Source: Herpetosiphonaceae bacterium
GTDB taxonomy: Bacteria; Chloroflexota; Chloroflexia; Chloroflexales; Kallotenuaceae
Reading direction: 5' to 3'
Length of the DNA: 55,529 nt
Assembly: GCA_036374795.1 (NCBI GenBank)
Contig: DASUTC010000091.1
Location: forward strand, 1 to 55,529
Notes under the pieces: model-generated
The model's database searches: none
Seen by the model: only the letters and a program-made list of their open reading frames with translations
Told to the model about the DNA's origin: nothing
Shown: piece by piece, positions 17,287 through 55,529 of the stretch
Layout of the letters: each line of letters starts with the position of its first letter
How positions within the stretch are numbered: the first letter of the stretch is position 1
Program-made: the position numbers and the translations under genes

Positions 17287-20200
17287 TTACGGATGATCGA
17301 TCGTCAGACGGGCGGCAGTTTCAGGATCGGCCTGCTCCAGCATGTGCTGCACGACCATCACCGAAAACTCGGCGATGGTCGGAGCCTCGAATAAGCCCCG
17401 CAGCGGCAGCGACACCTGAAATTGCTCAAGCACCCGCGCGTTGATCTGTGTCGTCAGCAGCGAGTGACCGCCCAGCGCAAAGAAATTGTCGTGGATGCCG
17501 ATGCGCTCGACGCCCAGCACCTCTTCCCAGATCGCGGCGACCGCCTGCTCAAGCTCATTGCGTGGCCCGACATACGTCTGTGCCCGATCGCTCAAGGCCA
17601 GATGCGGCACCGGCAGTGCCTGTCGGTCGACTTTTCCGCTGGCGGTCAGGGGGAAGGCGTTGAGCGGCACCACGATCGACGGGATCATATAGTCGGGCAG
17701 CTTGCCGCCCACAAAGCGCTGAAGCTCCTCCACGACGATGCTCTGGTGCGGCTGCGGGATAACATACGCAGTTAAACGCTGGTCGGGGTGCCTGCCCGCG
17801 GGCGCTGCGTCGTCGCGCACCATGACGACGGCATCCTGCACCGCTGGATGCTGCCGCAGCACCGCCTCGATCTGCCCCAGCTCGATCCGAAAGCCGCGCA
17901 GCTTGACCTGATGATCGACCCGCCCCAGGTACTCGATCGTGCCATCGGGCTGGTAGCGCGCCAGATCTCCGGTGCGGTAGAGCCGTGATCCAGGGGCGGC
18001 GCTGAACGGATCGGGGATGAAGCGCTCAGCCGTGAGATCCGCGCGCCGCACATAGCCGCGCGCCAGGCTGACGCCGCCGATGTACAGCTCACCGGCAATG
18101 CCGATCGGCACCGGCTGAAGCGCGCGATCCAGAATATACGCCCGGACGTTCCAGATAGGCCGTCCGATCGGGACAAGCGCCTGATCGGTCTGGCGCTGGC
18201 ACTGCCAGACGATGACCTGGATCGTCGTCTCGGTCGGGCCGTACAGATTGTACAGATCCGCCGGAAGGCGGTCGAAGCAGCGCTGTTGCAGGTCGAGCGC
18301 CAGCGCCTCGCCGCCGCAGAAGACCCGCTTGAGACTGGTGCAGGAGCGGATCAGCGGCTCTTCCAGCAGCAGGTGCAGCATCGCCGGGACGAGCTGCAGG
18401 ATCGTGATCCGGCGCTCGATGACCGTCCTGACCAGATAGGTGCTATCCTGCTGCTTGCCCGGCTCGGCCACGACCAGGCACGCTCCGGCAAGCAGCGGCG
18501 CGTAAAACTCCCAGACGGATGCGTCGAAGCTGCACACGGTCTTCTGCAACACGCGATCATCGGTCGTCAGCGGCAGCTCGGCCTGCATCCAGAGCATGTG
18601 GTTGCACAGCCCGCGATGCGTGATCATCACGCCTTTTGGCACGCCCGTGGAGCCGGAGGTGTAGAGCACATAGGCCAGGTGGTCGGGCGCTCCGGCATGC
18701 TGCGGCGGCGTCGCCTGCTCCCGCGCGATCGTCGTCCAGTCGGCATCGATACGCACAACACGACCGTCGAAGGCCGGGAGTCGCTCGGCGAGGTGCTGCT
18801 GCGTGAGCAGCACGCTGATCGCGGCATTGTCGATCACGAAGGCCAGATACTCCGAGGGATGCGACGGCTCAAGCGGCACGTACGCGCCACCGGCTTTGAG
18901 CGTGCCCAGCAGCGCAATCACCAGATCCAGCGAGCGCTCGACATGGATGCCGACCAGGACATCGGGGCCGACGCCCTGCCGCATCAGGTGGTGCGCGAGC
19001 TGATTAGCGCGGGCATTCAACTCGGCATAGGTCAGGCGCTGGTCGCCATACTCGACGGCGACCGCGTCTGGAGTGCGCGCGGCCTGCGCCTCGAACAGAT
19101 CATGCAGCAGCAAATCAGGCTCCACGTCGACCGTCGTGCGGTTGAAGTCGGAGAGCAGCCGCTGGCGCTCGCTCGCGCCGAGCAGCGCCAGCCGGTCGAT
19201 CAGGAGCTGCGGCGCGTGCAGCGCATGATGCAGGAGCGTCTGGTACTGCTCGGCGAGGACCGCGAGATGCTCCTGATTCAAGAGCCGGGCATCGTAGTGG
19301 AAGTCGCAGACGATCGTATCGGCCTCGCGGCGACAGGCCAGCTTGATCTTGAATTGATGGGTACAGGCTGCGTAGCGCTCCAGGGAGCACGTCACGTCCG
19401 CACCGGACTCACACAGCGCGGCGTCGTCGAACGAGAAGCAGACCGGGAAGAAGGGCGGCTGCTCGCCGTCAGCGGCGTCCGGCAGCACGGTATCCCAGGT
19501 AAAATACTCCTGCCACTCGTTGTGCTCATGCCAGATCCGCCCGACCTCATCCAGCGCCTGTTGAAAGGTCGTGCTCGCGTCTCGCTCAAAGGAAAGCGGC
19601 AGGTCCCTGGCAAACAGCCCGATCGCCTGCTCAAGCTCCTCATACTTGCGCCCGTCGCTGGCGATGCCCAGCGTAAGCCGCGATTGTGGAATATGCCGTC
19701 CCAGCAGCACGATCCAGGCTGTCAGCAGCAGCATCGACGTATCGGCTGGATGCGCGTCAAGCTGCGCGGCGAGCGACTGATCCAGCGTGGAGTGATAGAC
19801 CTGGAGATCGAAGCCGCCCGCCGCGCCCTGCCGACGCTCGAACGCCAGACGCATGCCCGGCAGCGCCTCAAGGTGGGAGCGCTCGCGCCAGAATTGCTTG
19901 CCAACCTCGGCATCGGCGACCTCAAGCAATTCGTTTTGCCACTCGGCAATATCGGCGTACTGGAGCGGCTCGTCGTCGAGCGCGCCGCCCTCGACCGATG
20001 CCGCGTACGAGCGCACGATCTCAGCGACCAGATGGCGGAGCGATGCCAGATCAGCGCACAGCGCCGGGAGGCTGATCACCAGGCAGTGCTTGACGGGCGA
20101 GCATATCACCAGCGTACAGCGCGTCACGGGACCCTGCGCCAGATCGAATGGTCGTTGCAGCAGCTCATCAAAGACCTGCCAGATCTGCCGCGCCTGCGCT

Positions 20201-20487
20201 TCGGGCACGTGCTGCTGGATGTCGATCGCCTCCCAGGTCAGCAGATCCTCGCCAATCACCTGAAGCGGGATCGTCATCCCCGCCAGCGCGCGAAAGGTTG
20301 TCCGCAGGATCTCGAAGCGCTGAACCACGCTGTCGCAGGACTGGCGGAGGCGCGCCCGATCGAGCGGCCCGTCGATCTGTACCGCACACTGGGACCGAAA
20401 GGGCACAGCACGCCCGGCTTGCTGCAACAGCCAGACCTGTTTCTGCTGCGGCGAAACCCGTACACCTGCAATCGAATCAAGGGTCAT
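17287..20487 (-). CDS. NRPS module with degenerate C domain: C*-A-PCP, predicted Gln-like residue
   Basis: A protein of 1066 residues. The N-terminal domain (~10-430) has the condensation fold pattern (QQKQVWLLQQ, FDLAQGPV, LQYADIAEWQ) but the HHxxxDG motif is replaced by LPALCAD (~142), so the catalytic His is absent. The A domain (~460-945) is complete (YTSGSTGVPKG ~612, YGPTETT, ASGKVDR); its pocket by eye is D-A-W-Q-F-G-L-I-Q-K, close to the Gln code DAWQFGLIDK that I recall, with Gln instead of Asp at 331. The PCP has LGGHSL (~1007). The preceding NRPS protein ends in an intact extra C domain that could make the bond this module cannot. The dioxygenase and carbamoyltransferase genes lie immediately upstream, so the degenerate domain may instead be a docking platform. 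AAGGAG lies 11 bases before the ATG. Confidence 0.88.
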   Translation of the reverse strand: MTLDSIAGVRVSPQQKQVWLLQQAGRAVPFRSQCAVQIDGPLDRARLRQSCDSVVQRFEILRTTFRALAGMTIPLQVIGEDLLTWEAIDIQQHVPEAQARQIWQVFDELLQRPFDLAQGPVTRCTLVICSPVKHCLVISLPALCADLASLRHLVAEIVRSYAASVEGGALDDEPLQYADIAEWQNELLEVADAEVGKQFWRERSHLEALPGMRLAFERRQGAAGGFDLQVYHSTLDQSLAAQLDAHPADTSMLLLTAWIVLLGRHIPQSRLTLGIASDGRKYEELEQAIGLFARDLPLSFERDASTTFQQALDEVGRIWHEHNEWQEYFTWDTVLPDAADGEQPPFFPVCFSFDDAALCESGADVTCSLERYAACTHQFKIKLACRREADTIVCDFHYDARLLNQEHLAVLAEQYQTLLHHALHAPQLLIDRLALLGASERQRLLSDFNRTTVDVEPDLLLHDLFEAQAARTPDAVAVEYGDQRLTYAELNARANQLAHHLMRQGVGPDVLVGIHVERSLDLVIALLGTLKAGGAYVPLEPSHPSEYLAFVIDNAAISVLLTQQHLAERLPAFDGRVVRIDADWTTIAREQATPPQHAGAPDHLAYVLYTSGSTGVPKGVMITHRGLCNHMLWMQAELPLTTDDRVLQKTVCSFDASVWEFYAPLLAGACLVVAEPGKQQDSTYLVRTVIERRITILQLVPAMLHLLLEEPLIRSCTSLKRVFCGGEALALDLQQRCFDRLPADLYNLYGPTETTIQVIVWQCQRQTDQALVPIGRPIWNVRAYILDRALQPVPIGIAGELYIGGVSLARGYVRRADLTAERFIPDPFSAAPGSRLYRTGDLARYQPDGTIEYLGRVDHQVKLRGFRIELGQIEAVLRQHPAVQDAVVMVRDDAAPAGRHPDQRLTAYVIPQPHQSIVVEELQRFVGGKLPDYMIPSIVVPLNAFPLTASGKVDRQALPVPHLALSDRAQTYVGPRNELEQAVAAIWEEVLGVERIGIHDNFFALGGHSLLTTQINARVLEQFQVSLPLRGLFEAPTIAEFSVMVVQHMLEQADPETAARLTIDHP

Positions 20488-20564
20488 GTCTACGGTTCTC
20501 CTTCAGTGAGGTCGTGTAGGGCGCGGACGAGCACGGCGCGGCATATGTCGGCACACGCCCCGTG

Positions 20565-22742
20565 CTAGATCAGCGAAATATCGATCTCTTCTTGCCAGGC
20601 GTTGAGCCAGCGCCGGAGCTGCTGCCCGTCGTCTTTCGGTGGAACGTTCGAGCGATGCCAGACCAGGAAGGCCTGTTTGTCGGCACCGACCAGGAAGAGC
20701 GCGTGCATGCCTTTCGAGCGCTTCAGCGTTTGTAGCGCCTGCGCGGGCGTCTGCACGATCGGGCTGCCGACGTTGAGCGACGTGTTGACCGATACCTCGA
20801 CGCCGACGCGCCGCCCCATCGCTTTGAGATAGGCGTAGGCCAGCGGATCGATCTCAGGGCGGACGATCTGCACGCGCGCGGTGCCGTCCTTGTGGACCAC
20901 CGCCGGGATCAGATGCGCGCTTTCTGGTCGCGCCCGCACGGTCAGGACCATGTAGTTGTAGGCGTTGTAGTTATCGCAGGCGGCACCCGGCGATAGCTCA
21001 AACAGGTGATGAGCCGCCTGATAGGTTGCCATCGGCGCCAGCGGTCGCACGGCCTCGCGGAATTTGACGAGCTGATTCAAGATGGTGCGGATCTCCGCGT
21101 TGCAGGGATTGGCAAGGATCGAGCGATGCCCCAGCGCGCGCGGACCCGTCTCGGCCACGCCCTGGAACAGCCCGATCACGCCATTCTTGGAGACGATGTA
21201 GGCCATCAGATCGGCGATCACGCCGCGCCGTCCCACATCCGAGAGATTGCCCAGCCGAAGACAGCCGAGATCGCCGACGCTCTCTAGCGCCTGCTCGATC
21301 GCCGCGCTCGACGCCGGAATGCCGCAGTAGAAGGCATGGCGCAGCGGCTCGCCCGGAGGCGCGCCATTCGCCATCGCAACATGATAGGCCGCGCCCATCG
21401 GCGTCCCCGCATCGCCCGGCGTGGGCGGCACCCACAGATGCAGCCGCGTATTGTTGCATCCCAGGTAGCGCTCGTAGTAGTGCTCGTCGAAGTGCTCAAG
21501 CAGCTTCATGTTGGCAAGGCAGTTGAGCGCGGTGCCGCCGGTCAGCACCAGCTTATTGCTGCCGGTTGTGCGGATCAGATGGCCCACGATATGAAAGAGC
21601 ACATCCTCGAAGAGCATCTGTGTCGCGGCGGCCTTATCCACCCGATCGCGCGTAATCTCGGCATGCTGCACGTCCTCGACATTCAGGATCGCGTCGGGAT
21701 TCCACATATCTTTGCGGGCGATCGGCTCTCCCAGGATCTCCTTGAGCATCGGCGTGTACGGGCGATGCACGCTGCGATGCCAGTTTGCCAGCGCCCGGTT
21801 GAGATAGATCTGCCCGTTATTGCCGAAATAGACCAGTTGCCGGAGCTGGCGATAGTAGGGATTGGTCAGGCGATCGTTGTTGCCCCAGGCTGCCGCGCCC
21901 ATGTAGCGCCCTTCGCTGCTCAGCTCCGTCCAGCCGCCCTGTGTCGAGCTGATACACGAGTAGAGCAGGCCGAGCGAGTCGAACATGCTCCGGTTGTCGT
22001 ACAGCAGCTTGACGCGCCCGTGCTGGGCCATGTACAGCGAGATCGCGTTATCATCGCCAGCGCCGTCGATCACCGTGATGATCACCGGCTCCGCGCTGCG
22101 GGCAAATGGCGAGGCCGCAAGGGAAAAGTACGCATGGTTATCGTGGTGGCGCGCGCCGATGATCGGAAACGGCTTGCTCATGCCGAACTGCTCGCCCAGC
22201 GCCCTGGGACCGCTGAAGAACTTGAGAAAGCGCTGCGTAATCAGATCGCCGTCGCTGTCCTCCTGGGTCAGCAGCAGCGGCAGGCTGGCCGGTCCTTCTT
22301 CCAGAATCGCGCGTGGCGAGCAGCAGCGCACAATATCGAAGGTCGCGATACAGGCATGAATATCAGCAGGACCGATCCCAAGCTGCGCCATCTGCTCGCG
22401 CAGGACCTCGATCGATTGCTCAGGATACTTGGTGTAGTGCTTGACGCCGACAAAGCGCTCTTCCTCGTTGTTGGTAATCAGCCTGACGCCATCTTTGAGC
22501 GAAGCCGAGACGAGGCCAACGCCGCTGTTATGGGTGCAGGACGTAATACCGAGCAGATAGACCTCCGCGCCGCGCTCCAATTGCTGGCGCAGCGTCGCCA
22601 TGCGCTCCTGGGCATATCCGCTGGTCGGTAGATAAAACTGGTGGCGCTCGCCATACCGTTTCATGATCGGAAGCATGATCGCGTCGGCAAGATCGCCAAG
22701 CCACGGTCGCGCTGCCCCATAAACCCCAAACTTGCGTGCCAT
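20565..22742 (-). CDS. O-carbamoyltransferase, NodU/CmcH family
   Basis: About 725 residues, the usual two-part layout: an N-terminal Kae1-like domain with conserved HHDNHAYFS (~200) and GGTALN, and a C-terminal YrdC-like part with ETGPRALGHRSIL and NTSLNV. The family makes carbamoyl adenylate from carbamoyl phosphate and ATP, then carbamoylates a hydroxyl (as in nodulation factor, cephamycin and novobiocin pathways). The acceptor here is probably a hydroxyl made by the neighbouring dioxygenase or the P450, or a beta-hydroxyl from a KR domain. The start is set at ATG 22742, with GGAAGG seven bases upstream; an in-frame GTG at 22763 would overlap the previous stop as GTGA. No sign of truncation or missing motifs. 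Confidence 0.9.
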   Translation of the reverse strand: MARKFGVYGAARPWLGDLADAIMLPIMKRYGERHQFYLPTSGYAQERMATLRQQLERGAEVYLLGITSCTHNSGVGLVSASLKDGVRLITNNEEERFVGVKHYTKYPEQSIEVLREQMAQLGIGPADIHACIATFDIVRCCSPRAILEEGPASLPLLLTQEDSDGDLITQRFLKFFSGPRALGEQFGMSKPFPIIGARHHDNHAYFSLAASPFARSAEPVIITVIDGAGDDNAISLYMAQHGRVKLLYDNRSMFDSLGLLYSCISSTQGGWTELSSEGRYMGAAAWGNNDRLTNPYYRQLRQLVYFGNNGQIYLNRALANWHRSVHRPYTPMLKEILGEPIARKDMWNPDAILNVEDVQHAEITRDRVDKAAATQMLFEDVLFHIVGHLIRTTGSNKLVLTGGTALNCLANMKLLEHFDEHYYERYLGCNNTRLHLWVPPTPGDAGTPMGAAYHVAMANGAPPGEPLRHAFYCGIPASSAAIEQALESVGDLGCLRLGNLSDVGRRGVIADLMAYIVSKNGVIGLFQGVAETGPRALGHRSILANPCNAEIRTILNQLVKFREAVRPLAPMATYQAAHHLFELSPGAACDNYNAYNYMVLTVRARPESAHLIPAVVHKDGTARVQIVRPEIDPLAYAYLKAMGRRVGVEVSVNTSLNVGSPIVQTPAQALQTLKRSKGMHALFLVGADKQAFLVWHRSNVPPKDDGQQLRRWLNAWQEEIDISLI

Positions 22743-22759
22743 TCGCTGCCTTCCACCCC

Positions 22760-23821
22760 TCACGAAATCGCGACATCGTCCCAGCTACAGGGAGCGGACA
22801 TGCCCACAACCACTTTACGCGGGCCGCTATAGGGCGCGCGTCCATGCGCCACCAGCAGGTTATCCAGCATCAGCAGATCGCCCTGCTGCCACGGAAAGGC
22901 GATCGTCTCTTGCTCGTGAATCGCGCGCAGCTCGTCGAGCACCTCAGGCTCGATCGGCGAGCCGTCGCCGTAATAGGTGTTGGTCGGTAGATCATCTTCG
23001 CCATACTCGATCAGCAGCGCCTCGCGGATCGTCGGCTCAAGCGTCGAGATATGGAAGAAGGTCGCGTGGTTGAACCAGACTAGCTCCTGCGTGCGTGGAT
23101 GTTTCGCCACGGCTCGGCAGACCTGCCGCGTGCGCAGGCGGCCCCGCTCGCGCCACTCCACCTGCGTGCCGACCTGCTGGCAGTAGCGCTCGACTTCGGC
23201 TTTATCGGTGGTATGAAAGACCTCCTGCCACGGTAGCCCGAAGCCATCGCCGAAGTTGCGGACCAGCATCCAGCCCTTTTCCATGAACTTCTCGCGAATC
23301 CTGGGATCGAGCCGTTGATAGACCCGGCGCATATCGGCGATCGGCGTTTCTCCCTGCTGCTCGGCTGGCTTCAGGCAGAGAAAGAAAATGTTGGTCGGGA
23401 AGCTATGCCGATACGCCAGCTCGTTGTGCAAGAAAATGCGCTGATAGGCCGGGTAGTCGGTCGAGGTGTAGATGTTGTCGCTCAGCTTCGTACGCGGCGA
23501 TGCGCCCTCATGGTATTCCATCGGCGCGCCGCCGACCGCCGTGATGAACTGGTTGAACTGCTCAAGCGTCTGCATATGGTCGAAACTGCGGAATAAAATA
23601 CCGCCATGCAGCGCGAGCTTGTCCTCGATCAAGGATCGGCTATTCTGAATCCACTCGATCAGGTTCAGCTTGTCGATCGCGGGCTGCACCACGAGCGGAA
23701 GCTGCGACGCGCCGCTCAGCGGCTCCATCCGCACGAGCGATTCGCTCGATGTGGTGATGGTCTTACGCTTGATCGCGCTCAGCGAGCCCAGGCTGCGCTT
23801 TGGATTGCCGGAGTCGGTCAT
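22760..23821 (-). CDS. Fe(II)/2-oxoglutarate dioxygenase, TauD/SyrP-like
   Basis: A 353-residue soluble enzyme. The iron ligands appear as HNE (~130, the H-x-E form common in SyrP-like enzymes) and the distal His in VAHGR (~324), followed by the Arg of PRKVVVG as probable 2-oxoglutarate ligand. WFNHATFFH (~245) and QQGDLLMLDN are also typical of the group. SyrP relatives hydroxylate carrier-bound residues, often at the beta carbon. The ATG overlaps the stop of the preceding NRPS gene as ATGA, so translation is coupled, and it precedes the carbamoyltransferase. The likely pair chemistry is hydroxylation followed by carbamoylation of a residue loaded on a neighbouring module. The exact substrate is not visible from sequence. 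Confidence 0.88.
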   Translation of the reverse strand: MTDSGNPKRSLGSLSAIKRKTITTSSESLVRMEPLSGASQLPLVVQPAIDKLNLIEWIQNSRSLIEDKLALHGGILFRSFDHMQTLEQFNQFITAVGGAPMEYHEGASPRTKLSDNIYTSTDYPAYQRIFLHNELAYRHSFPTNIFFLCLKPAEQQGETPIADMRRVYQRLDPRIREKFMEKGWMLVRNFGDGFGLPWQEVFHTTDKAEVERYCQQVGTQVEWRERGRLRTRQVCRAVAKHPRTQELVWFNHATFFHISTLEPTIREALLIEYGEDDLPTNTYYGDGSPIEPEVLDELRAIHEQETIAFPWQQGDLLMLDNLLVAHGRAPYSGPRKVVVGMSAPCSWDDVAIS

Positions 23822-26800
23822 ACCTCTTCATATCCTTTCGCTGGTGGTTGGTGCGCGCCCTGCTGCCGACGAGCGCGGAGTCGCTGAAGGTTTGCCGAGG
23901 AGAGCGCCTGCCGCGCCTGGCTGCGCTCTTCTGCCACGGCCTGATCCAGCATCGTCGTCAGCGCGCTGACCGTGCTGTCGGGACGAGCCGTGATCGCGGT
24001 GATGACGGTCTGGAAATGATTGAGCAGGCGACGAATGGTGGTGCTCTCGAACAGCTCGGTGCTATATTCAAGCGAGCCCGACAAGGAGCCGTCTCGCGGC
24101 AGGATATTCAGCAGCAGATCGAACTTCGTCGTGGCCGTATCGACGACGAGCGGCTCGGCGGTGATTCCCGCGAGGCTCAACTGGGGCATCGCGGCGGTCT
24201 GGAGCACGATCTTGACCTGGGTCAGCGGCAAGAACGTTGTGTCACGCTTCGGCAGGACTTCCTTGACCAGATACTCGAACGGAAGCTCCTGATGGGCGTA
24301 GGCGCTGAGCATGCTTTCGCGCACGCGCTGCAACAGCTCTCGAAAGGTCGGATCGCCCACGAGGTTAACGCGCAAGACGAGCTGGTTTACAAAAAACCCG
24401 ATCAGGTCTTCCGTCTGCGCCTGGAGCCGGTTGGCGGTGTCGGTGCAGATCGTCAGATCGGAGGAGCGTGTGTGCTGGTGCAGCACGCAGAGCCAGGCTG
24501 CCGTGAGCGTCATAAACAGCGTCGCCTGGCTCTGCTGGCCGAGGCGCGTCAGGGCAGCGCTCAGCTCTGCCGAGATCTCGAATGGTTGCCGCGCGCCCGC
24601 AAAGGTCGGCGCGGATGGTCGCGGTCGATCGCCCGGCAGATCATCGAGCGGCAGCCCGGCCAGCGTTTGTTTCCAGAAGGCCAGATGCGACTCAAGCACG
24701 GCGTCACGCAGCCAGTCGCGCTGCCAGATCGCGAAGTCGGCATACTGGATCAGCAGCGGCGCGAGCGGCAGCGGCGCGTGATCGCGATCGTGATCGAGAA
24801 AATAGTTGTAGAGTGTGGAAAGCTCGCGGGTGAAGACGCTCAACGACCAGCCATCGATGATGATATGGTGAAACGTCAGCAGCAGCACATAGGCCGAGTC
24901 TCCGGGCTGGAGCACCGTGTAGCGCAGCAGCGGGCCGCGCTGGAGATCAAATGGCTGCCGCGCCTCATGCGTCGCGCGGCGGGCTACTTCCGACTCATGC
25001 TGAGCCGCCGGAAGATCGCGGAGGTCGATCAGCGGCACCTCCAGATCGAGGACCGGCGCAATCACCTGATGCGGACGCCCGTGGACGGCGGTAAACGTCG
25101 TTCTCAGCGACTCGTGGCGCTGGATCAGGGCGTTGAGGCTCTGCCGCAGCGCGTCGATCTGGAGCGGCCCCGAAAGCCGCACCGCAAACGGAACGTTATA
25201 CATGGGGTTGCCCGGAAAGAGCTGATCGAGGAACCACAGGCGCTGCTGCGCGTACGACAGCGGCAGATCGCCGTCGCGTGGGAGCGGCACCAGCGCCGGT
25301 GGCAGGTGGCCGCTTTTGGCCTGCTGCGCCGCCTCGACCCGCTGCGTAAACGCGCGCAGGCTCGGAAATTCAAAAAGCGTGCGGACCGGCAGGTCGATCT
25401 TAAAGAGATCGCGCACGCGGGCGATCACCTGCGTCGCCAGGAGCGAGTGGCCGCCTAGCTCAAAGAAGCTAGCCTCGGCGCTGATCGGCGCGACGGAGAG
25501 CACACCCGCCCAGATCGTCGCGATCGTCTCCTCAAGCATCGTAAAGGGTGCCAGCGCCGGGCGCTCCTGCGAACGCGGGCTTCCTTCCAGCGGCGGCAGC
25601 GCGCGGCGGTCAACTTTGCCGTTGGGCGTCAGCGGCAACTGGTCGAGCTGCATCACATGGTTGGGCAGCATGTAGATCGGAAGCCTGGCACGCAGAAACG
25701 ACTGAAGTTCGCCGCCGGTGATCCGCTGCTCGCCGCGCGCGACGATGTAGGCGACCAGCAGCCGATCGCCGCGCTCGTCCTGCCGGATCGCGACCACGCC
25801 GTCCTGTACCGCCGGATGCTGCCGCAGCGCGGCCTCGATCTCGCCCAGCTCGATGCGATAGCCGCGCAGCTTGACCTGCTGATCGGCGCGGCCTAGAAAC
25901 TCGATGCTGCCGTCAGCGCGGTAGCGCGCCAGGTCGCCCGTCCTGTAAAGCCGCGCGCCACCCTGAGGGTCCCCGGTCTGGCTGAACGGATCGGGCACGA
26001 ACTTCTCGGCGGTCAGCGCGGGCTGATTGAGGTAGCCCCGCGCCAGGCCATCGCCGCCAAGATAGAGATCGCCGGGCACGCCGATCGGCACCGGCTGCAT
26101 GTCGGCGGCGAGCACGTGGGCCTGCGTATTGGCGATCGGATAGCCGATCGACGGCTCGCGCGCTGCGTCTCTGGGCAGCAGCGTCCCGGTCGAGTAGGTC
26201 GTGTCCTCAGTCGGGCCATACAGGTTATAGACCCGCTCGATCGTCGGGATGGCATAGAGCTGCCGGACCAGCGTGCTATGCAGCGGCTCGCCCGCGAGAT
26301 TGACCGTGCGTACCGATGCGGGCAGCCGCTCCGTGCGAACCAGCTCGGCAATCGCGGAAGGGACCGTGTTGAGCAGGGTGATCGCGGCGCTTGTCTCAGG
26401 CACGTGCAGCGGCGTCTCCGCGATGATCGCCGTACCGCCGCAGCTCAGCGGGACGAAGAGCTCAAAGACCGAAAGATCGAAGCAGATCGATGTGCCTGCC
26501 AGCACGCCTGCCAGTTCGTGCGGCGAAAAGACGGTCTTGGCCCAGGCCATCAGCGCGACCGCGCTGCGGTGAGTAATCGCGACGCCCTTGGGCCGTCCGG
26601 TGGAGCCCGACGTGTAGATCACATAGGCCAGGTGCGCGGCATCGATCGCAGCCGCAGGGTTGGTCCGAGGATAGGCCGACACGATCTCCTGGCTGGTATC
26701 CAGGCACAGCACAAACACCGCTGTCGCCGACAGCCGCTCCACAAGCGGCTGCTCGGTGATCACCGCCTCGACCTGCGCGTCGTCGAGCATCAGCCGCAGA

Positions 26801-50412: not shown

Positions 50413-53400
50413 TTAAAAGCGCAGGAGCACCTCGATCCGCTGCTCAGGCCCGCGTGCGATGGCGTCTAAGAGCGCCTGAAAGCGTTGCAGCATCCGGCTG
50501 ATCGTGGCATCGTCGAAACAGGGCCGGTGGTACGACATACTCACCACGATCGCAGGCCCCGGAAATACGTCGATCCTCAAGGGGTACTCCATCTGGGCAA
50601 AGAATAGGCGGGTCGGATTTTGAACAACGCCCAGATTCTGGAAAATCAGGTAGCTATCGAAGAGCAGCCCATCGTGCGGAAGCTCCAGCCACTCCCGCAG
50701 CTTGCGCATCGGCGTGTACTCGTACTGGCTCATCGTGACGTGATGCTCGCGAAGGTGCTGGAGCAACGTCAGTAACGCGCTGGCTCGCGGTACCTGCACC
50801 CGCAGCGGCAAGATATTTAAGGTCGGGCCGACAATCGCATCAGCGCCTGCCAGCTCGGTGGGGCGACCGCTGACGACCACGCCAAAAACAACGTCTTCTG
50901 CGCCGGTATAGTCGCTCACGAGCAGCGCCCACGCGGCCTGGACGAGCGTGTTCAGGGTGATCCGATGCGCCCGCGCGATCGTTTGCAGCATGTCGGTTGT
51001 GTCGGCGTGCAGCGTGCGGTGCTGCCGGGTAAAGCCTTCCGCCTGGCCTGGTCTATTCCCCGGTACGGACTGGATCAGCGACGGAGCGGGGCACATGCCG
51101 CTCAAGGCTGTTTTCCAGAATCGCTCGGCCTTTTGAAGATCCTGCTGTTGCACCCAGGCAATATAGTCCGCGTACGCTTGCGTCGGCGCGAGCTCGACCT
51201 CCCGATGTGTGGCGTAGGCGGCATAGAGCGTTGAAAATTCATTCAGCAGCAGGCCCAGGCTCCATCCATCGAGACACATATAATTGAAGCTAAAGATCAC
51301 CTGCCAGGCATCGTCCGCAACCTGTGCGAGGCAGACACGGATTGGAGTCGGCTGCCTCAGCTCGATACCGCGCTGGCGGTCGGCGTCAAGATAGGCCATC
51401 AGGCGCTCCTGCTGCTCGACGGCAGGAACGCCGCGCCAGTCCTGATACGCCAGCGGTAACGACGTGTGTGTATGCACCACCTGAAGCGGCTGCGGTTCCT
51501 GCTCCCAGCTAAACGAGGTTCGTAATATCGCATGCCGCGCCGCAAGCTGCTGCCAGGCGCGCTCAAAGGCCGCTCGATCCAGCGGCCCCGGCATCGCATC
51601 GACACGCTGCACGAGGTAGAGGCCCGGCTGCGGCGCGGCCAGGTATTGCGACAGAAGATGATCCTGAAGCGGCCCCAGCGGATACACGTCCTCGATGTCG
51701 CCGCCCTGGCCGCTCATGCGATCGATGTCGTGCTGCGTACGGCGGATGAGGGTAGCATCATCGGGCGCTGATCCGTCTGCCACGCTCGGCTGTCCCGGCG
51801 AAACCATGCCTGGTGCTGCATCCCGCTCGGCCCCGGAAGCTGGCAGCGCATCCACGGCTGCTGCCAGCTCGGCGATCGTCTGATGCTGAAACAGGTGCCT
51901 GGGCGTGAGCAAGAGTCCGGCGCGATTGGCTTTAAAGACCACCTGAATACTGTGGATCGAATCGCCGCCCAGCGCGAAGAAGTTGCTGGTGATCGATACC
52001 TGCTCCAGGCCCAGCACATCGCACCAGATGGCGGCGAGCATCTGCTCGGTCGGCGTGCGTGGCGCGAGATCGTCCGAATCAAGATCGATGACCATCGGGA
52101 TCGGCGCAGGCAGCGCCGAGCGGTCCAGCTTGCCGTTTGGCGTTAACGGCAGCGCGTCGAGCAGCACGATCGCCGAGGGCACCATATGCTCCGGCAGACG
52201 CTCCTTGAGGTAGCTGCGCAGCGCCGGAACGATCCGCCGCTCCAGCTTGCTGTGCAGCGGATTGTTCGCGTAGGTGCTCCACGGGCGCTGGATCGAATCC
52301 GCTGCTGGAGCTGCCACGGCTCCCGCCTCCGGTCCTGCCTGGCGCGAGAGCAGCAGATCAAAGCTGCCGAGCGGGCCGGAGCCAGACCAGCCGAGTGTGG
52401 TGGTATAGCCGAGCTGCTCGCCCACCGACCAGGCATCCTCCGGGTCGACGGCGGGCGCTTCCCTGACCGACGCCACGGCGGATCGAAGCTCGCCCGTGGT
52501 CGCTGGCCGATCCGGACGCGCCAGGGCTGCCGCGATCTGGAGATCGCCGCTGAGGCGGGCATTGGGCACGCCCGTGATCAGCAGGCGCTCCGGCTCGGTC
52601 GCCGCGATGTGCCGCCGGAGATCTGCGATCGTCAACGCCTGCTCACGCCAGTCGAGACGCGGCACGTCTTCGCAGATCGGCTCCGCTGAGCCAACGCGCA
52701 GGACGGCATCGTAGCGGAATTTCGTCAGCTCATTGTGGCTGGTGCCGCGCTTGAGTTGCAGATCGAGATGGCTGATGCCTGGCAGATGCCGGGCCAGGGC
52801 GTGGAAGAAGGCGGGATCGATCGCCAACTCCTGCTCCTGGGCCAGGCCGCGCCGGATGCGCTGGTGCAGCCGAAGAGTCGGCAGCGTGTCGGGCGCGCGG
52901 AAAAACTCCACCGAGGTATGAAACAGCTCCAGGAGCGGGAGGCTCCGCAGATCGCCGACAAAGACGTGCCCGCCGGGCGCGACCAGCCGCGTGGCTGCTT
53001 CCAGCACGCGCAGCAGGTAGCCAACGCTGGGGAAATACTGCACGACCGAGTTGAGAATCACCGTGTCGAACGTGCCCGGCTGAAGCTCGCCAAGCTGATC
53101 CGCCGCGCGGTGGACCAGCGCGACCTGGGAGAGATCCAGCGCCGATAGCTGGGCCTGGATGTGCTCAAGCGCGGCCTGCGAGAGGTCGGTTCCCACATAG
53201 CGCTCACACGACGGCGCGATACGGAAGAGCAGCAGCCCGGTTCCACAGCCGATCTCCAGGACTCGTCGGGGTCGCAGCGCTGCGATCCGCGCAACGGTCT
53301 GATCGACCCAGGCGCGCATCTCCGCCTCCGGGATCGGCGCTCCCGTATAGCTGCTGGTCCAGCCGCTCAGGTTAAGCGTGGGCTGCGTCGCCGGGCTCGC

Positions 53401-53489
53401 CCGCCGATAAGTATCGTCGAAGACCTGCTGCCAGCTCGTCACCTGCTCAGCCGTTAGCGTTTCGAGTTCTGAATTTTGAGTTGAGGCCC

Positions 53490-53493
<4 letters not shown>
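50413..53493 (-). CDS. NRPS fragment NMT-A(C-terminal part)-PCP-C*, second half of a split module
   Basis: 1026 residues from GTG 53493, which overlaps the stop of the upstream NRPS ORF as GTGA. It begins with an N-methyltransferase (EIGCGTGLLLF, ~95) very like the one inside the C-A-NMT-PCP-E protein of the main operon, then the C-terminal A subdomain (LPEHMVPS, NGKLDR), PCP with LGGDSI (~510), and a C domain opening DVYPLGPLQ. This C domain reads NYMCLDG where HHxxxDG is expected, so both His residues, including the catalytic one, are missing. No A domain follows. By itself the ORF cannot activate an amino acid; it must pair with the upstream ORF. It is the last gene of the upstream transcription unit and converges with the DinB gene. 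Confidence 0.85.

Positions 53494-55529
<2,036 letters not shown>

Follow-up and report, generated by a model that had tools for sequence, protein, structure and literature searches.

What does a condensation domain contribute to a peptide assembly line once its catalytic histidine is gone and an intact condensation domain ends the preceding protein? The question is raised by an operon of nonribosomal peptide synthetases (NRPS) in a stretch of 55,529 nucleotides from a Herpetosiphonaceae bacterium (contig DASUTC010000091.1, assembly GCA_036374795.1), the whole of which is called the window here. On its minus strand, a protein of the order C-A-T-C (P0004; C, condensation, A, adenylation, T, thiolation or carrier domain) is followed by a TauD-type dioxygenase (P0003), a NodU-type carbamoyltransferase (P0002) and a C*-A-T protein (P0001), where C* stands for the degenerate condensation domain that starts P0001 and for its relatives. 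Our answer, held with considerable confidence, is that the C* of P0001 is an interface (I) domain, a condensation fold without catalytic histidine that serves as a docking platform for TauD, and that the orphan terminal C domain of P0004 condenses in trans. Gene order, loss of the catalytic histidine, clade membership, association with TauD and co-divergence are the observations on which this answer is based. Judged from sequences, recruitment of the hydroxylase by C* combined with condensation by the orphan C appears well supported.

Gene order in the window

All features given in this section lie on the minus strand. P0004 (23818-28476; translation and Pfam) ends in the orphan condensation domain, whose HHIIIDG motif is intact (23941-25281, bounds approximate; translation, Pfam Condensation in two stretches, motif alignment) and which extends beyond position 24900, where the region delimited by the first-pass annotation ended. 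It is followed by P0003, a TauD/SyrP-type Fe(II)/2-oxoglutarate dioxygenase (22760-23821; PF02668, E 1.8e-48), and by P0002, a NodU-type O-carbamoyltransferase (20565-22763; PF02543 and PF16861). P0001 (17287-20487; translation and Pfam) starts with C*, assigned as an interface-type domain of the condensation superfamily (residues 1-450, 19138-20487; PF00668, E 4.4e-46), with codons for LPALCAD at the former active-site motif (20050-20070; motif search, register by alignment). It continues with an A domain (17614-19107; PF00501/PF13193 and pocket code DAWQFGLIQK) and a T domain (17362-17547; PF00550). The next protein in line, P0009 (13869-17258), is a canonical C-A-T protein by domain annotation, motif alignment and pocket code and would take over the modified residue. 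Overlaps of four bases, ATGA between P0004 and TauD and GTGA between TauD and NodU, suggest translational coupling, and the gap before the P0001 start ends with AAGGAG, which resembles a ribosome-binding site.

The first-pass annotation had described a degenerate domain behind an intact orphan C domain, with the dioxygenase and carbamoyltransferase genes in between, and this description stood. Its label of a Gln-type module holds as well, as far as a pocket code can tell: read at what we take to be the GrsA pocket positions, DAWQFGLIQK presumably matches glutamine. P0003 would be the β-hydroxylase of this residue. The HxE residues (first ligand His and Glu) and the distal His, which we take to be the metal ligands of TauD, are kept in 117 of 117 relatives and in all 115 with a letter at the position, respectively.

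Neighbours of C* in related loci

For the survey, named genomes were scanned with a five-sequence C* alignment; of 569 confirmed relatives, the 80 that scored best were kept, which gave 79 loci. To these were added 8 plasmid loci, one for each distinct organism in the top 13 rows of a protein search. The resulting 87 loci represent the closest relatives and not a census. They were picked by likeness to C*, not to TauD, and span cyanobacteria, Acidobacteria, Deltaproteobacteria, Binatus, Ktedonobacteria, Herpetosiphon, KSB1 and Methylocystis. A C* match had at least 60 bits to a profile of Chloroflexota C* domains, the window's included, in plus-strand stop-to-stop frames only. Because the loci are mutually related, with some C* sharing a locus and some loci near-duplicates, neighbour counts and Fisher values are descriptive only. 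Dictyobacter arantiisoli and Ktedonobacter robiniae may be repeated in the code, tree and motif counts, and the two C* rows of one locus (L112) are a single C* split by a frame break.

All 119 C* matches lay at the N-terminus of a protein, never mid-chain behind another domain. Eight were at an edge and seven had nothing annotated upstream, which left 104 readable ones. TauD was directly upstream of 85 of these (53 filed with a separate TauD gene, one of which, in L138, is in fact a frame-broken fusion, and 32 with a C-TauD fusion); 16 followed a terminal C without TauD and 3 something else, one of the latter being a frame-split C*. Counted per locus, TauD adjoined C* in 63 of the 78 readable loci. 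Seen from the enzyme, C* came next after 87 of the 91 TauDs in the 87 loci, the others being two at an edge, one before a KS and one before another TauD. As a control from the same loci, none of the 83 canonical N-terminal C domains with a readable upstream side stood behind TauD, 54 being found behind a T and 22 behind an epimerization (E) domain. Beyond any TauD, the upstream protein ended in a terminal C or a C-TauD fusion for 92 of the 96 readable C*. The co-occurrence with TauD on which the first-pass annotation had staked its proposal is borne out by these counts, as is the pairing of the degenerate domain with an orphan C placed for condensation in trans.

Within the window's own genome, TauD lay between a C-ending protein and a C* protein at three of the four sites with the exact motif, the window included. 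A C*-like protein behind TauD had an upstream protein ending in a carrier, with no orphan C seen (L058:6328-15159), and a chain with tandem C domains before A, the second weak and with LHQLITD (L059:3470-10718), adjoined a C-TauD fusion that has a canonical C module next.

SyrP-type enzymes hydroxylate residues such as those coded by most C* modules. DxTK codes, which we take to be of Asp/Asn type, were found in 86 of 117 C* modules, whereas the remaining modules of this data set had them in 11 of 224 cases, so that most C* modules carry residues open to SyrP-type hydroxylation. Twelve C* modules had DSALI[AS]EVWK, presumably a His-like code. DAWQFGLI[DEQ]K was seen in five C* modules, the window's included, and in no other module, and the remaining C* modules include Glu-like codes. 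Two C* proteins with Glu-like codes (L005:5777-11245 and L006:7094-12616) end in degenerate epimerization-like domains (THALAVD, THALAFD).

Co-divergence of C* and TauD

Distances were correlated over 60 sets, each made up of an orphan C domain with its TauD, C* and A domain. The correlation was 0.71 between TauD and C*, 0.28 between TauD and orphan C and 0.34 between orphan C and C*; the corresponding partial correlations were 0.47, 0.01 and 0.13 (bootstrap 0.06-0.27 for the last). In a rerun with one duplicate dropped, the TauD-C* partial correlation was 0.48 (permutation 0.001), and within Asp/Asn codes only it was 0.49. On balance, and indirectly, this co-divergence points to C* as the partner of the hydroxylase rather than a mere dock for the orphan C. 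The tie between degenerate domain and hydroxylase that the first-pass annotation had drawn is supported by gene order, tree and co-divergence alike.

The most likely alternative takes C* for a subunit dock that binds the upstream orphan C across the protein break, with TauD present for other reasons. This would agree with the N-terminal position of every C*, with the terminal-C protein that precedes 92 of 96 of them, including the 16 without TauD, and with a C-C* partial correlation that, though small, exceeds zero. Against it, TauD and C* have the larger partial correlation (0.48 versus 0.13), although the 21 fusions do not show this clearly. Canonical N-terminal C domains, for their part, mostly follow proteins ending in T or E (76 of 83) and never TauD, and mere docking would not require the enrichment of Asp/Asn codes in C* modules. 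We regard this alternative as improbable. The distance correlations do not favour the view that C* mainly serves to dock the orphan C; the small C-C* signal persists, and the fusions by themselves do not decide the matter.

Several observations weigh against C* as a docking platform for TauD. In 15 of the 78 readable loci, C* has no adjoining TauD. The genomes of 13 of these loci were searched (L112 and L160 left out), and a TauD at E <= 1e-60 to P0003 was found in 8 of them and none at this threshold in the other 5; several of the genomes are metagenome-assembled, and incompleteness may be part of the explanation. Three of the five (L103, L110, L114; Binatus/Deltaproteobacteria) hold related clusters of FAAL, polyketide synthase (PKS), a single C and C*-A-T-C-A-T with the code DARHMGVIDK, a group for which we cannot account. 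In the window's genome, one C* has no TauD on its 22-kb contig (C238), and a fifth, C*-like domain (C312) has a TauD before it, but the protein preceding this TauD ends in a carrier, not in C. DSALIAEVWK was equally frequent outside and inside C* modules (11 and 11). When only the 21 fusions were taken, TauD and C* showed a weak partial correlation (0.19, permutation 0.111), while that of C with TauD was 0.34. TauD also tracks the A domain (partial correlation 0.30 overall, 0.45 for separate TauDs, 0.61 for fusions), and part of the co-divergence is therefore due to inheritance of the module as a unit.

Motif, fold and phylogeny of C*

In an alignment with 331 canonical C domains, HHxxxD aligned with PALCAD and not with LPALCAD. 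The register of the first-pass annotation, which had set LPALCAD against HHxxxDG, had to be corrected accordingly: PALCAD replaces HHxxxD, and the Asp is kept. The second, catalytic His was present in 0 of 143 C* versus 318 of 331 canonical domains, its place being taken by Ala, Ser, Thr, Pro, Gly or Val in all 143. His occurred at the first motif position in 3 of 143 C*, and the motif Asp was retained in 143 of 143.

The exact motif matched four times in the window's genome, versus no match for the reversed pattern. LPALCAD is not a chance match, because all four matches lie within NRPS genes and the same arrangement is found in several phyla. A raw motif search in 400 genomes gave 61 matches, 4 of them from the window's genome. 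Twenty-nine others were judged by eye, with 5 in C domains and 24 outside; among 20 stretches around motif matches (those 5 and 15 more, with 13 matches left out), 5 were without NRPS domain. Viral contigs yielded no C* relative with search patterns taken from the window's sequence alone.

The AlphaFold model of the window's C*, made with a 55-sequence alignment, had a mean pLDDT of 93, and the same alignment showed C* in several phyla with conserved positions of its own. A fold search with the model listed 50 matches, C domains for the most part, with Z scores of 34.4-41.6, the best of them aligning over 420 residues at 2.5 A; it does not separate the C subtypes, since C, Cy, X and dehydrating C domains all lie at Z 34-42. 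By this model, C* is not a decayed domain. A functionless relic of a replaced condensation domain, suggested by the lost His and the intact C upstream, is hard to reconcile with a confidently modelled fold, a supported clade with its own conserved positions in several phyla and an Asp kept in every C*, and we give it very little credence. It is just as far-fetched that a residue other than His lets C* condense while the orphan C stays idle: the second His is missing from 13 of the 331 other C domains too, but the orphan C is intact (HHIIIDG) and the catalytic position of C* holds one of the six residues named above, never His.

The C tree comprised 171 C-superfamily domains, among them 58 distinct C* (55 drawn randomly of 142, with the window's and three of siderophore type). 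All 58 fell into one clade (support 0.993) with no other C type inside, and the three siderophore-type C*, which come from plasmid loci chosen by layout and profile and not from a list by Reitz and colleagues, grouped beside the other 55 (support 0.911). In a tree of 117 TauDs, P0003 was sister to the TauD of L129 (support 0.959), which precedes another Gln-type C* module, coded DAWQFGLIDK; the deeper placement of this pair had a support of 0.0.

Relation to known systems

Reitz et al. reportedly described in 2019 an interface domain together with a SyrP/TauD β-hydroxylase in siderophore NRPSs. Interface domains have a condensation fold, lack the catalytic His, adjoin the N-terminal side of the A domain whose residue is hydroxylated and come with a separate active C domain, which precedes them, and a cognate SyrP/TauD enzyme, which they position on the carrier-bound residue. 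From its sequence, the window's C* appears to share these traits, with a condensation fold, no catalytic His, a position directly before A, an orphan C upstream, a TauD and a place in the clade of the siderophore-type domains. Both systems have a His-less domain of the C superfamily before A, an intact C upstream and an adjacent or fused TauD. They differ in that the siderophore systems carry Asp or His codes, whereas the window has a Gln-type code in a Chloroflexota NRPS/PKS cluster, LPALCAD and NodU in the gap. antiSMASH 8 has profiles for the interface domain and the β-hydroxylase.

A chemical precedent was found in cyanochelin B of Leptolyngbya sp. NIES-3755. For this peptide, β-hydroxyaspartate was reported at residues 4 and 6 by NMR and mass spectrometry, and both threo forms were seen by Marfey analysis, their assignment to the sites being partly bioinformatic (PMC12628792). 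There, the fused hydroxylase CcsFGH precedes CcsI, the module to which residue 4 is attributed, and a separate hydroxylase, CcsK, precedes CcsL (BAU16061), to which residue 6 is attributed (PMC12628792). We found BAU16061 to be C*(LPSLCAD)-A-T-E with TauD before it, and the protein behind the fused C-TauD, taken as CcsI by its position, to be C*(LPALCAD)-A-T; two stretches spanning the cluster coordinates held no third C*. Its two arrangements, a C-TauD fusion before C*-A-T with LPALCAD and a terminal C and separate TauD before C*-A-T-E with LPSLCAD, resemble that of the window. Unlike the window, it codes for Asp and a siderophore, and no NodU was seen in the two stretches, annotated with the profiles of this analysis. 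In variochelin, the TauD hydroxylase is embedded within VarG (PMC10999976), and a Variovorax plasmid locus of similar layout has KS..C-TauD, then C*-A(DLTKVGHVGK). Potashchelin, a siderophore with β-hydroxyaspartate, is given as FAAL-ACP-C-TauD-C-A(Asp) (PMC7100376), and by this description has the C-TauD-C-A order of the window.

Outside the siderophores, the report on the heinamides of the laxaphycin family considers a homoserine to be 3-hydroxylated; homoserine is also carbamoylated, with no carbamoyltransferase assigned to the cluster there (PMC8471579). Compared by description, the residue is homoserine in heinamides and Gln in the window. For the hydroxyasparagine of laxaphycins, cupin-8 hydroxylases were proposed, and the word TauD is absent from the text searched (PMC7524897).

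Two other types of system were considered. The X domain of glycopeptide NRPSs has a condensation fold and recruits P450s in the terminal module. One X domain, 4tx2, matched the C* model at Z 36.0 and 3.3 A over 419 residues; 6m7l is also an X domain. X domains work at the end of the line with P450s, whereas the window's C* sits between an upstream C and A with TauD as neighbour, so a glycopeptide X domain was rejected as the identity of C*. T-type (TβH) hydroxylase systems are not known to use an interface domain. The Tistrella enzyme, called T-type with a GGDSI-type carrier (PMC10391617), formed a clade with five other TauDs (support 0.999), none with C* next. P0003 lies outside these six, the carrier motif is GGHSL and C* is present, and a T-type system was rejected likewise.

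The hydroxylase half of the system is thus of an already known kind, an interface domain with a β-hydroxylase. What is new, as far as could be seen, is the use with a Gln-type module, the NodU neighbour and a survey that places the protein break between C and C* in every case. In the open-access PMC literature, we found no paper that ties an interface domain to hydroxyglutamine or carbamoylation and no statement of an invariable C/C* break, which Reitz et al. 2019 may contain.

The carbamoyltransferase and the gap before C*

Physical docking, the timing of the steps, hydroxylation of Gln and carbamoylation are what we infer from the observations above. The A domain would load Gln onto the carrier of P0001, TauD, held by C*, would hydroxylate its β carbon, and the orphan C of P0004 would then form the peptide bond in trans to β-hydroxy-Gln before the chain passes on to P0009. 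NodU would probably O-carbamoylate a hydroxyl of the product, perhaps the β-hydroxyl, with no sign of C* being needed for this step.

P0002 has both carbamoyltransferase domains, and its solved relatives are decarbamoylnovobiocin carbamoyltransferase, GdmN, TobZ and one entry named only carbamoyltransferase. That C* might recruit this enzyme, the second half of the proposal in the first-pass annotation, was not supported. Besides the window, NodU occurred near C* in one of the 87 loci (L092), as a distant homologue (27% identity) behind C*-A(DLTKIGEVGK)-T; the profile was built on P0002 only, and distant NodU genes may therefore be missed. Recruitment of NodU by C* is hence unsupported, no association being found. 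Homologues of 30-39% identity were present anywhere in the genome in 5 of 6 C* genomes searched, and a P0002 match at E <= 1e-60 was found in G000 only among 82 genomes of the order. The closest plasmid homologue, from Rhizobium lusitanum (49.5% identity), had no NRPS domain within 32 kb around it by the profiles built in this analysis.

Contig C242 of the same genome as the window holds another TauD together with a truncated NodU, the two separated by about 1.4 kb and situated about 19 kb from the C* of that contig. The truncated NodU has 61% identity over residues 7-535 of P0002, and the remainder, the C-terminal domain, was not found. The pair (L072:7001-8785 and L007:218-1426) is probably a decayed copy of the window's and hints that TauD and NodU may travel together.

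Extra genes in the gap before C* were also seen elsewhere: methyltransferases (L080, L081, L083, L115 and L133, also L136 and L157), asparagine-synthase-like genes (L135, L151, L157), an aminotransferase-like gene (L121), a radical-SAM-like protein (L145) and an HD-type protein (L107), two of these being annotated and the rest named by eye from sequence. NodU seems to fit this pattern, and, from gene position alone, β-O-carbamoyl-Gln would be a plausible product. More tentatively, the break between C and C* may be a conserved plug-in slot with TauD as default tenant, to which second-step enzymes are added (the methyltransferases, asparagine-synthase-like and radical-SAM-like proteins and the window's carbamoyltransferase), so that 3-O-carbamoyl-glutamine would be built carrier-bound; we consider this possible, though doubtful.

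Other features of the window

The last PKS protein, P0010 (5063-13978, minus), closes with a tandem array of epimerization-like domains, three in number (HHLVGDG, HHLVTDA, HHLAADG), an odd arrangement behind a PKS carrier. In the region 50413-55529 (minus), P0012 has a C-terminal tail of repetitive EQRTKSKEQRAKNKEQRTG, and P0011 starts with a methyltransferase-like stretch and the remainder of an A domain; read by eye, the two look like an A-methyltransferase module split by the repeat. The terminal C of P0011 (50413-53493, minus) has FNYMCLDG in place of HHxxxDG, so that the window holds two C domains that lack the catalytic His, of which this one does not belong to the C* type. Near the cluster end (3-2156, minus), an acyltransferase-like region is fused to a beta-lactamase/CubicO-like domain, both named by eye. 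This fusion could be an unusual release enzyme; no thioesterase was noticed in the cluster.

Conclusion

If C* is indeed an interface domain, a degenerate C domain at the start of a protein, behind an orphan C, would mark a β-hydroxylated residue, and the A code would name that residue. The marker would reach beyond the siderophores, to cyanobacteria, Chloroflexota, Acidobacteria and others, and would sharpen structure prediction for many uncharacterised peptide clusters. For the engineering of hydroxylation, the protein break before C* would be a natural place to cut, and the docking question could be addressed with a small Gln-specific set of three proteins.

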